Shown: positions 54,061-57,777 of the stretch, in pieces
Layout of the letters: each line of letters begins with the position of its first letter
Numbering within the stretch: the first letter of the stretch is position 1
DNA from: Saliphagus infecundisoli
GTDB taxonomy: Archaea; Halobacteriota; Halobacteria; Halobacteriales; Natrialbaceae
DNA: 64,000 nt
Direction: 5' to 3'
Assembly (NCBI RefSeq): GCF_020177375.1
Contig: NZ_JAIWHV010000002.1
Span: 186,001 to 250,000 of the forward strand
Position numbers and translations under genes: made by a program
The notes under the pieces: model-generated
Database searches by the model: none
What the model was told of the DNA's origin: nothing
What the model saw: only the letters and a program-made list of their open reading frames with translations

Positions 54061-54897
54061 CTACTCGGTCACGGTGAACTCGCTGCCGATTCCGAGATCG
54101 GTGTCCTCCCTGCCCTCCGGCGAACTGACGCTCCAGTAGACGAACCGGTACGTGCCCGGTTCGAGGAGCTCACAGACCGCGTACGGCGTTTCGCCGAGCG
54201 TCGGCTTCGCCATCCCCTCCCGGGTCAGCGTCAGCGACCACTCGAACCACGCGGTCGGCGGGGACGACTCCGGCTTTATCGAGCCCATATCCATCCAAGT
54301 CTCGAGGGCCGAATTCACCCGATAGATGGATTCCCAGCCGTCGTCGGTCTCCCGTTCGACGGTGAACTTCTCGCCGGTTCCGAACCGGGAGTTGTCGTCT
54401 CCCTCCAGCCATCGAAGCGTCGCCGTGATCTCCTCGCCGAGCGCGACGGGGTCGGGAGAGGCCTCGAGTTCGAACGTCTCGCCGGTGTCGTACTCGAGCC
54501 GTCCGTACTCGACCTCCTCGAACTTCCCCGAGAGGGGAACGAGACTCTCGCCACACGACGGCGGCTCCCGGAGCTCCATTCCGCTGTCCTCCGGGGAGTT
54601 TATCCTGGGACTCCCGTGCCAGCCGATCGTCTCGTTCGAGTCGCCGGAGTCCGTGGAATCGGTGGAATCGGTAGACCCGTTCGAGTCGTTCGATTCGGTA
54701 GAGCTGTTCGAGTCGGTGGATTCCGTGGATCCATCGGATTCGGTAGAACCGTTCGATTCCGTGGATTCGTCGGAGTCAGTCGAGTCGCCGTCTCTCTCGT
54801 CGCTCCCGCCGGGATCGGAGTCGCCATCGCTCAGACAGCCCGCGAGGACGAGTCCCGTACCCGCTCCGACCGTCGAAACGAACGCGCGCCGGTCCAT
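54061..54897 (-). CDS. Surface lipoprotein with Ser/Asp-rich linker
   Basis: 278 residues. DRRAFVSTVGAGTGLVLAGC is a Tat lipoprotein signal. Residues about 22-90 are a low-complexity Ser/Thr/Asp/Asn repeat (STES, SDST, GSTDST units) with N-x-S sequons. The C-terminal half is a beta-rich domain with GETFELEASPDPVALGEEITATLRWLE and CELLEPGTYRFVYW, like a beta-sandwich. The function is unknown. It is convergent with infB. Confidence 0.75.
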   Translation of the reverse strand: MDRRAFVSTVGAGTGLVLAGCLSDGDSDPGGSDERDGDSTDSDESTESNGSTESDGSTESTDSNSSTESNDSNGSTDSTDSTDSGDSNETIGWHGSPRINSPEDSGMELREPPSCGESLVPLSGKFEEVEYGRLEYDTGETFELEASPDPVALGEEITATLRWLEGDDNSRFGTGEKFTVERETDDGWESIYRVNSALETWMDMGSIKPESSPPTAWFEWSLTLTREGMAKPTLGETPYAVCELLEPGTYRFVYWSVSSPEGREDTDLGIGSEFTVTE

Positions 54898-55388: not shown

Positions 55389-55508
55389 GAGAACTCGCTA
55401 TCCACACAAGGGGCCGCCCGAGCAAAAAGCGTTCGGCTCCCGCCGTGACCGGTTCGCATACCCGAGCGGCCGGCTCCCGAGATCGGAACCGACGGCGGCG
55501 GCCCGCTC

Positions 55509-55988
55509 CTACAGGATCGGCTCGCTCTCGCCGTAAATCGCGAGGACGACCGCGGAGGTGTACGTCCCCGACTCCGCACTCGCGGTCTCGACGCGATCAT
55601 CGGGCTCGCCCAGATCCCACTCCCGAAGGTCGCCGCCGGCCTCGAGACCCTCCCGGACCCGGCGGCGGACGTCGTCGGCGTCGGCCTCGCCCGCGGCCTC
55701 GTAGAACAGCCCCGGGCCCGTCTCGCCCTCCCGGACCCAGCCGAGTGCGGCGCTCGCTCGGCCCGGCCCGGCGACGGTCGCCCGCGCCTCGACGACGGTC
55801 AGTTTCTCGCCCACCGGTCCGAGATCCGGGGCGGTTCCGACCGCCCGAACCTCGGCGTCCTCGGGGATCACCGAGGAGACGGGGACCAGGTTGTAGTTGC
55901 AGATCCCCGCCGCCGCGAGCGCCGCGTCGTAGGCGGCCATCTCCGTCGGCGCTGACGCCGACCCCCGGACGATCCGAATCGTTCCCAT
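55509..55988 (-). CDS. pdaD: Pyruvoyl-dependent arginine decarboxylase
   Basis: 159 residues. It converts arginine to agmatine, feeding agmatidine on tRNA-Ile2 and polyamines. The self-cleavage site is the Ser-Ser of PVSSVIPEDA at residues 38-39, which generates the pyruvoyl group and the small beta-subunit. VGEKLTVVEARATV and the AALGWVREG strand fit the family. ATG 55988 gives MGTIRIVRGS. Confidence 0.93.
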   Translation of the reverse strand: MGTIRIVRGSASAPTEMAAYDAALAAAGICNYNLVPVSSVIPEDAEVRAVGTAPDLGPVGEKLTVVEARATVAGPGRASAALGWVREGETGPGLFYEAAGEADADDVRRRVREGLEAGGDLREWDLGEPDDRVETASAESGTYTSAVVLAIYGESEPIL

Positions 55989-56071
55989 TGGCGGGGGTCG
56001 GGGATCGGCGGCGTAAGGGCTTGCGATCCGTGGACGACCTGCGCGATCAGGGTGGCGGTCGGTGGCCGTGA

Positions 56072-56333
56072 GCGGAGCCTGAAGAACTGAAGGCTCCGCG
56101 ATCCAACGAAAGAGCAAGCTCTTTCGAGCATCGCGAAACCGAAGGTTTCGCTCAACGGGAAAGGGCAGGCGTCCTATCGATACTCACCGCGAGCGACTGC
56201 AAGGAGCGAGCGGGCCGACGACCGATGTGGCGCGAACGAAGTGAGCGAAACGGAGAGAGGAGTGCTTTTCATCAACGCTAAGCGGAATCGGAGATTCCGC
56301 GAGGTCCGAAAGAACGCGAATCGCGCTCTTTCG
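56072..56333. repeat. Array of five near-perfect hairpins
   Basis: H1 56072-56099 GCGGAGCC/GGCTCCGC. H2 56107-56126 CGAAAGAG/CTCTTTCG with a 4-base loop. H3 56133-56151 GCGAAACC-GAA-GGTTTCGC. H4 56282-56300 GCGGAATC-GGA-GATTCCGC. H5 56307-56333 with outer arms CGAAAGA/TCTTTCG and inner CGCG/CGCG, one mismatch. H1 and H4 share GCGGA arms, and H2 and H5 share CGAAAGA arms, so the array looks like a duplicated pair. No gene reads through it convincingly. Confidence 0.7.
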
Positions 56334-56434
56334 AGATTTTGCCGAGTGCGGTCGCCTGAGTGATTAGCGCAATGGATGAATACGCATCACAGGCTCCAGC
56401 TCAAAGCGCTTCTCACCACGAGTGGATTTCCCGA

Positions 56435-56540
56435 TTAAACAAGCCTCCGAGCGTCGCTGAGAACTAGATCGCCACGTTCCTTCTGGATATTCAGGTGTTG
56501 CAGTGACCACTCTGCGACCGCACGCAGCGCAAAAGGTTGG
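56435..56540 (-). pseudogene. Possible gene remnant next to the PAN stop
   Basis: A minus-strand frame entering from the PAN 3' end reads FALRAVAEWSLQHLNIQKER, then GDLVLSDARRLV and stop (TAA at 56437). It looks like protein-coding sequence by composition but is cut off by the PAN gene. Further along another frame carries AGACDAYSSIALITQATALG. This is probably a decayed gene or transposase fragment. No family is named. Confidence 0.3.
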
Positions 56541-56544
56541 TCGT

Positions 56545-57777
56545 CTATTGGTAGAAGTAGCCCGCCGCGGGCACGACGTCGCTCCCGTCGTCGTCCTCGA
56601 TCTTCTCGATGGCGGCCTCGAAGTCGCCGGTCTCGACGGTGGTCCGGTCGTCCCGGATCGCGAACATCCCGGCCTCGGTCGTCAGACTCTCGATCTCGGC
56701 GCCGCTGTAGCCGTCGGTTTCGGCGGCGAGGGCAGCGAAGTCGACGTCCTCGGCGACTTCCATCCCGCGGGTGTGGATCTCGAAGATCCGCTCGCGGCCC
56801 GCCTCGTCGGGTTCGGGGACCTCGATGAGGCGGTCGAAGCGGCCCGGTCGGAGGATCGCGCGATCGAGCATATCGAAGCGGTTGGTCGCGGCGATGATCC
56901 GGACCTCGCCGCGGGCCTCGAAGCCGTCCATCTCGGAGAGCAGTTGCATCATCGTCCGCTGGACCTCGGCGTCTCCGGAGGTTTTGGACTCGGTTCGGGT
57001 CGCGGCGATGGCGTCGATCTCGTCGATGAAGATGATGGCGGGCTCTCGTTCGCGGGCCATCTCGAAGAGGTCCCGGACGAGCCGGGAGCCCTCGCCGATG
57101 AACTTCCGGACGAGTTCCGAGCCGGCCATCTTGATGAAGGTGGCGTCGGTCTTGTTCGCGACCGCTTTGGCGAGCATCGTCTTCCCGGTACCCGGCGGGC
57201 CGTAGAGGAGCACTCCCGAGGGCGGGTCGATTCCGACCTCCTCGAAGACCTCGGGCTGGGAGAGGGGCTGTTCGACGGCCTCGCGGACGTCTCGGACCTG
57301 CTCGTCGATGCCGCCGATCTCCTCGTAGCCGACCTCGGGGCTCTCGGTGATCTCCATCGCCTGGGCCCGCGCGTCGGTCTCGGCGTTGAGCACCGTCTGG
57401 ATGCCAAAGGAGTCGTCGACGGCGACCCGGTCGCCGGCGTCCAAGCGCTCGTAGGTCCGCGGGGCGGCCTCGGTCAGCACCTCCTGATTGTTGCCGTGTT
57501 GTTTGACGACGACCTCGCCGTCGTCGAACGTGTCCTCGACGGTCGCGACGTACAGCGAGGAGCTCTTCAGGGCCTTGTTCTCGCGTTCGACGCGGTCTGC
57601 CTCCTCCTGGAGTTGCTCGCGGCGCTCGGTCGCGGCCTCGAGCTGGTCGTCGAGTTCGGCGTTGACCTCGGCGATCTCGTAGAAGTGAGAGCGAAGCGCC
57701 TCGAGTCGTTTGTCGTCGGGTAGCTCCGGATCGATCTCGCGCGTCGGTCGATCGGGAAGCGACGGGCTTCGGGACAT
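56545..57777 (-). CDS. pan: Proteasome-activating nucleotidase PAN
   Basis: 410 residues. A hexameric AAA ATPase that unfolds substrates for the 20S proteasome. Coiled coil at residues about 30-75, OB domain 75-135, Walker A GPPGTGKT at 193-200, Walker B IIFIDEIDAIA, the SRH ATNRFDMLDRAILRPGRFDR, and the C-terminal HbYX motif in GYFYQ, which docks into the 20S alpha ring. Paired with SAMP2 elsewhere in the window, it belongs to the archaeal protein-turnover system. Confidence 0.96.
   Translation of the reverse strand: MSRSPSLPDRPTREIDPELPDDKRLEALRSHFYEIAEVNAELDDQLEAATERREQLQEEADRVERENKALKSSSLYVATVEDTFDDGEVVVKQHGNNQEVLTEAAPRTYERLDAGDRVAVDDSFGIQTVLNAETDARAQAMEITESPEVGYEEIGGIDEQVRDVREAVEQPLSQPEVFEEVGIDPPSGVLLYGPPGTGKTMLAKAVANKTDATFIKMAGSELVRKFIGEGSRLVRDLFEMAREREPAIIFIDEIDAIAATRTESKTSGDAEVQRTMMQLLSEMDGFEARGEVRIIAATNRFDMLDRAILRPGRFDRLIEVPEPDEAGRERIFEIHTRGMEVAEDVDFAALAAETDGYSGAEIESLTTEAGMFAIRDDRTTVETGDFEAAIEKIEDDDGSDVVPAAGYFYQ

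Follow-up and report, generated by a model that had tools for sequence, protein, structure and literature searches.

REP/BIME sequences are present at over 100 copies per genome in the excerpt available from PMC2817692, and the ends of their hairpins bear a GTAG or CGTC tag (PMC3733652, in part). Haloarchaeal PATEs are defined in Table 4 of PMC3119063 by near-terminal palindromes, by the lack of inverted terminal repeats and by a length too short for a transposase. Regarding transcript ends, intergenic termination in Haloferax volcanii occurs at stretches of T, and a hairpin that was tested there terminated too, according to the part of PMC7237163 available. The locus considered here belongs to a 64,000-nucleotide stretch of Saliphagus infecundisoli DNA (the window), in which an original prediction had placed an array of five hairpins at 56072-56333. 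These five hairpins are arms of one modular base-paired element and not a stand-alone array. In most of the copies that we parsed, this element begins a few nucleotides past a stop codon, in a fixed orientation and at recurring conserved genes.

In the window, pan (56545-57777), an open reading frame for the proteasome-activating nucleotidase, an AAA ATPase (Pfam AAA, AAA_lid_3 and Prot_ATP_ID_OB_C), ends at a stop codon that adjoins the element. The next gene in the same direction is pdaD (55509-55988; pyruvoyl-dependent arginine decarboxylase, Pfam PvlArgDC); both genes lie on the minus strand, and the array sits within the 556 bp between them. Elsewhere in the window, the minus strand of 54061-54897 is predicted to encode a lipobox protein with a Ser/Asp/Glu/Thr-rich low-complexity stretch and without a Pfam match. 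All five predicted hairpins were recovered, and each can be read from either strand: H1 (56072-56099), then H2 (56107-56126) and H3 (56133-56151) of the left module, then the optional modules H4 (56282-56300) and H5 (56307-56333). Indeed, 56050-56350 folds better than 100 of 100 dinucleotide shuffles on each strand (z of -2.70 on plus and -4.80 on minus). Loops of 3-4 bases had been announced for all hairpins, which does not hold for H1, made of 9-bp arms and a 10-nt loop. The limits given to the array also had to be abandoned, as they cut through a larger unit, which extends on the plus strand from about 56064 (left edge approximate) to 56540, insert included, and has homologues in relatives.

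Between H3 and H4, this larger unit has two more stems with tandem G·A pairs (56187-56265); further on comes a sixth palindrome, whose halves (56337-56355 and 56514-56534) are separated by a 155-bp insert. The core (56187-56269, plus strand), overlooked in the original prediction, consists of the S1 hairpin (56187-56213, best folded on the plus strand), which has two tandem G·A steps, of the S2 stem (56214-56265, plus strand), in which Watson-Crick pairs alternate with tandem G·A and which includes one C·A in the window copy, and of the TTTT that S2 abuts (56266-56269), a proposed terminator of plus-strand transcripts. Downstream, the 5' arm of the terminal stem (56273-56276) has its partner at 56536-56539, also on the plus strand. 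The sixth palindrome is a stop-codon-proximal hairpin of the form TTTT[N]C/G[N]AAAA, with all four Watson-Crick pairs; on the plus strand its 5' half begins with TTTTGC and its 3' half ends with GCAAAA, which reads as TTTTGC on the gene strand, just past the pan stop. The hairpins had moreover been described as a two-hairpin unit repeated with variation, of which the repetition is plausible and the register unsure. H2-H3 scored 36 against the reverse complement of H4-H5 and 28 against H4-H5 directly (2000 mononucleotide shuffles: mean 15.3, maximum 30), and the register first proposed, H1-H2 against H4-H5, scored 33 direct and 20 inverted, scores that do not decide on register because hairpins resemble their own reverse complement. 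We favour H4-H5 as a probable inverted copy of H2-H3.

The general architecture was drawn from the window and 350 loci, which yielded 180 elements with distinct core sequences; the right end could be recognised in 163 of them, and the 17 others were omitted. Read on the plus strand, the left part presents optional hairpins H1-H3, a purine-rich linker, S1, S2 ending in GTGC, and TTTT. The right part has a long terminal stem, sometimes with H4-H5 inside, and, in most cases, a palindrome, then GCAAAA, then an arm of four bases, beyond which comes the stop codon of the opposite-strand gene. The alternation of Watson-Crick and tandem G·A pairs in S1 and S2 is our reading of the alignment, and this putative register is supported by covariation. 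One S2 pair is C-G in 84 elements, T-A in 86, T·G in 9 and T·C in 1 (n = 180), with C·A never seen there, in counts that come from related sequences and in which events are not independent. The pairing of the Y column with a neighbouring G, as given by RNAalifold, was dropped in favour of the shifted register, in which covariation is seen. In the terminal stem of four bases, 95.2% of pairs are Watson-Crick, whereas 1000 partner shuffles gave 74.5% on average and 78.7% at most; all four pairs form in 141 of 163 elements. Beside it, a variable pair takes all four types (G-C 101, A-T 37, T-A 12, C-G 5, others 3; n = 158 parsed). The strict S1 hairpin pattern was found in only 98 of the 180 elements; in these canonical S1 the inner pairs are AC/GT (40), CC/GG (33), GT/AC (10), GC/GC (6) and others, and 78 of the loops are GNA.

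Folding of the core depended on the strand. The plus-strand core was more stable than the minus-strand one in 60 of 60 sampled cores (mean of -29.8 versus -20.1 kcal/mol), and the mean z after mononucleotide shuffling was -1.33 on plus, a modest value alone, versus 0.36 on minus. The hairpins between the core and the gene end look alike from both strands because their loops are GNA or TNC (58 and 73 of 176, respectively). The TTTT after S2 is retained in 159 of 163 elements, with a search anchor that contained TTTT and allowed 2 mismatches, and the AAAA before the gene end in 157 of 163, with an anchor that favoured A4 and allowed up to 2 mismatches.

In 133 of 163 elements, 5-11 nt (most often 5 or 8) separate the right end from the stop codon of an opposite-strand gene, and none of the 163 overlaps a called gene. 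The other 30 face a more distant gene end (12), a gene start (15) or nothing on the right (3), in gene calls made by a simple codon-usage script, so that some of these exceptions are caller errors; about six have a stop codon visible by eye, and two (L015 and L339) are SRP RNA genes. The 133 stop-adjacent elements belong to 26 gene families, 19 of them represented more than once; this is a lower bound from a non-random sample, because copies were collected as best hits to the window, to the model or to a 24-base pattern. The largest host families encode a TbsP-like regulator (15), PAN (12), an EngB-like GTPase (12) and a small AbrB-like protein (12), followed by a geranylgeranyl-reductase-like protein (11), an HD protein (10), Lrp/AsnC (10), TFS (9) and ribosomal L10e (6), with smaller families including both DNA polymerase D subunits, the thermosome and PurF. 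Pfam backs the names TbsP, GTPase, HD, AsnC, TFIIS and L16/L10e; no Pfam family was found for the AbrB-like and reductase-like proteins, and the remaining names were read from the sequences. On the left, the neighbour of the 133 elements is a gene end (67), a gene start (51), or far or absent (15). Stable RNA genes are also followed by the element, namely SRP RNA at three loci (L015, L339 and L358) and tRNA-Leu at one (L083), and convergent genes may each carry their own opposed copy (L204, L233, G115). At five loci (L106, L111, L267, L301 and L333), elements stand 43-50 nt upstream of a plus-strand gene start, apparently that of one gene across several genomes.

At the pan-pdaD position itself, pdaD was present in 57 of 71 genomes; 30 pdaD loci were taken and, within the stretch retrieved around each, pan was adjacent in 21. 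Inspection by eye found the element in 10 of these 21 syntenic genomes (own included) and its absence in 11. All 10 copies share the same orientation at the pan stop, the one at L138 with an altered right end, and a TTTT begins at most 14 nt from the pan stop in 8 of the 10 loci with the element versus 1 of the 11 without. This position directly after the pan stop, in line with the 133 copies that abut a stop codon, lends indirect support to the proposal that the hairpins may form the 3'-end structure of the pan transcript.

The joint absence of other copies in the genome and of a transcript end nearby had been named as the outcome that would speak against the original prediction; copies were counted, and others exist. 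The hairpins and their intervening sequence recur elsewhere in this genome, where 6 copies are strong (E below 1e-12) and are followed by a series of weak matches. With 56060-56360 of the window as the query, 83 of 149 genomes matched, and with a second copy as the query, 73 of 149 (own included in both; best 5 candidates per genome, so that copies are at least those found). A covariance model of the core, built from 39 aligned cores, matched 76 of 100 genomes (own included) at E 0.001 or better, with, among the best 39 candidates scored per genome, up to 28 copies in same-family genomes and at least 37-38 in two genomes outside the family. Six outside genomes, rescored with 150 candidates at E 1e-5, gave 37, 43, 20, 25, 19 and 2 matches, counts that are less sure because many of these outside hits are weak matches of just some 57 nt. 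Across a collection of 84,980 species genomes, a 24-base pattern from the core had 97 matching stretches, every one in Natrialbaceae genera or MAGs, and diverged forms are present in other families of the order. In one genome from such a family, copies adjoin TFS (L364, by eye) and SRP RNA (L358); 30 loci outside the family yielded 18 parsed elements, of which 9 are adjacent to a coding stop (one element appears twice in these counts). Phage or plasmid cargo was rejected, with 0 exact matches to the core pattern in viral contigs and just 3 plasmid records matching the window stretch.

Copies are about equally alike whether they share a gene, a genome or neither. Among the 93 elements with a genome handle, median core identity was 0.798 for the same gene (280 pairs), 0.797 for the same genome and a different gene (108 pairs) and 0.789 for neither (3890 pairs), and recent amplification was rejected on this basis. 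The core thus carries no gene-specific signal, which suggests a role that is shared rather than gene-specific. Within one gene family, the core and the right end are not a constant distance apart: 49 to 128 at pan, and 265 in the window copy with its insert. These data fit a consensus that selection for a shared function would maintain, while hairpin modules are probably gained and lost. A variant pair, 94% identical, was also observed in this genome (L022 and L023, both 1380-1645); it has a different S2 region, longer conserved flanks and a right end without an apparent stop codon, and related copies occur among L062-L069.

The 155-bp insert (56358-56512, plus strand) lies in the loop of the terminal hairpin and has a history of its own. 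Eleven further full-length copies, 97-100% identical, exist in this genome, two of them (L004 and L005) at apparently one duplicated site, together with diverged or partial ones; no copy was found in 79 other genomes. An inverted-repeat score of 7 or more was reached by the flanks of 11 of 13 insert copies (exceptions L009 and L011), versus 28 of 156 mismatched flank pairs, in a comparison that omits L005, as a duplicate of the L004 site, and the partial L014. With 11 of 13 copies thus flanked by an inverted repeat, the insert seems to jump into hairpin loops, mostly those of palindromes that differ in sequence. By eye, its ends are inverted and target duplication is absent, which, with its insertion into palindromes, corresponds to SMR-A. 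A PATE identity was considered for the insert and rejected, as the available part of PMC3119063 places it nearer SMR-A. In L016 (1600-1740), a degenerate relative of the insert was seen by eye, apparently in the equivalent hairpin of another element copy, which suggests that the terminal palindrome has been targeted repeatedly by this insert family.

From a mechanistic point of view, the position after stop codons and stable RNAs, the T tracts on both strands and the strand-specific stem before TTTT suggest that the element may be a bidirectional transcription terminator, or insulator, at gene 3' ends, a reading to which we give a probability of roughly 0.55. The gene's own RNA polymerase would meet a T4 tract 5-11 nt past the stop codon and then a strong hairpin. 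An opposing polymerase would first make the G·A-stabilised S1 and S2 and then U4, and would halt before entering the gene in antisense. H4-H5 and H1-H3 would be optional extra hairpins, lost and gained, probably via recombination, and the 155-bp insert a separate mobile element landed in a hairpin loop. In line with this, a T tract at the gene 3' end is what most copies display, the gene-strand TTTT being retained in 157 of 163 under the A4-favouring pattern and standing 5-11 nt from the stop in 133. Several observations stand against termination, however. T4 is shorter than the T5C assayed in Hfx. volcanii (PMC7237163, in part), the order on the gene strand is T4-hairpin-A4 and not hairpin-T4, and the model predicts 3' UTRs of approximately 10-15 nt versus a median of 97 nt given for Hfx. 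volcanii in the same source. Moreover, it is on the antisense strand that the conserved core folds, and the tandem contexts (gene starts as left neighbours in 51 of 133) show no obvious promoter there; the element is dispensable, since 11 of the 21 syntenic pan loci lack it and this genome has only 6 strong copies; the plus-strand z of the core is modest; to the right, 15 of 163 elements face a gene start and 3 face no feature; 17 of 180 elements had no right end that could be recognised; and outside the family, 9 of 18 parsed elements stand at a coding stop. A more specific version, in which a dedicated archaeal factor, e.g., FttA/aCPSF1 or an L7Ae-like protein, recognises the conserved tandem-G·A-helix RNA antisense to gene ends and so insulates housekeeping genes and stable RNAs both ways, is speculative, and we regard it as doubtful.

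A miniature mobile element of the PATE or REPIN kind would account for part of this, the hairpins being recognition sites of a transposase and the copies having spread as single-stranded DNA to settle harmlessly after genes. Copies are indeed interspersed, core folding is strand-specific, spacing and modules vary among copies at one gene, the variant pair of L022 and L023 is found at two places in this genome, and haloarchaea do have IS605-related PATEs (PMC3119063, in part). This explanation is nevertheless unlikely given the placement beside stop codons, the recurrent use of 19 of the 26 gene families, the lack of exact core-pattern matches in viral contigs and the few plasmid records reported above, and the relation to transposases: the number of elements is uncorrelated with that of Y1 transposases (rho 0.13, p 0.30, 61 genomes; within the family, rho 0.08, p 0.63, 37 genomes), and 8 genomes with 0 Y1_Tnp matches hold 10 or more elements.

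Covariation, tandem G·A helix steps and GNA triloops are features typical of RNA. Their presence here, together with the greater stability of the plus-strand core, would also agree with a structured RNA, antisense or derived from a 3' UTR, that would act as a protein ligand or as a trans regulator of the host gene; yet Rfam recognised only the neighbouring SRP RNA in 20 element loci and no family in 55400-57000 of the window, and the core is as similar between genes of one genome as between copies at one gene, which makes such an RNA rather improbable. The hairpins that separate the core from the gene end, palindromic and with loops that occur in both senses, and the entry of a palindrome-seeking insert into one of them are what a DNA-level element (a cruciform, or a nucleoid or topoisomerase site) devoid of any role in transcripts would show. 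The strand asymmetry of the core, the proximity of stop codons and the location downstream of stable RNA 3' ends argue against it, and we consider it very improbable.

No earlier description of the element was found in the open-access literature, by topic or by sequence words. The original prediction had likened the hairpins to REP/BIME-type repeats, which the element resembles as a set of modular intergenic hairpins near gene ends. This identity was rejected on copy number (6 strong copies here, at least 28 in the top same-family genome among its best 39 candidates, and up to 43 outside), on the lack of the RAYT/Y1 transposase correlation, in a genome that itself has 5 Y1_Tnp matches, and on recurrence at 26 gene families. 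By eye, 56072-56333 contains no GTAG and a single CGTC, away from the hairpin ends. Unlike REP/BIME, the element is thus low-copy, free of a GTAG tag and of a Y1-transposase link, longer, strand-specific and recurrent at the same genes. The accompanying remark that such repeats are rarely described in archaea is itself doubtful, as PMC12306157, in the part available, reports REP-like sequences in archaea generally; its main text gave no haloarchaeal name under the terms tried.

Like the PATEs of Haloquadratum (PMC3119063, in part), the element is haloarchaeal, non-coding, built of palindromes and a target of an SMR-A-like insert. It has palindromes and no transposase, with termini that are not delimited by filled and empty sites. 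By contrast with PATEs, which that source relates to IS605 and describes as mobile, it is found at the stop codons of conserved genes, the relation to IS605 being judged here from Y1_Tnp counts. As for the insert, it shares with SMR-A of Haloquadratum its inverted ends, its palindromic targets and the lack of a visible target duplication or of a transposase, and differs in its 155 bp versus about 110 bp and in targets of varied sequence, including the hairpin after pan in the window, where the available part of PMC3119063 places SMR-A in palindromes of PATE and IS605 elements. The range of palindromes that SMR-type mobile repeats target may thus extend beyond the ends of PATE and IS605.

Lastly, the element resembles the archaeal T-tract terminators of Hfx. 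volcanii (PMC7237163, in part) in having a T run just past the gene, sometimes with hairpins near, and departs from them in that it embeds the T tracts of both strands in one large covarying structure. If the terminator model is true, some archaea would add a structural layer to a termination process for which a U tract is otherwise considered nearly sufficient. This large, covarying and strand-specific structure of Natrialbaceae, diverged in other families of the order, provides a concrete set of genes for testing termination.
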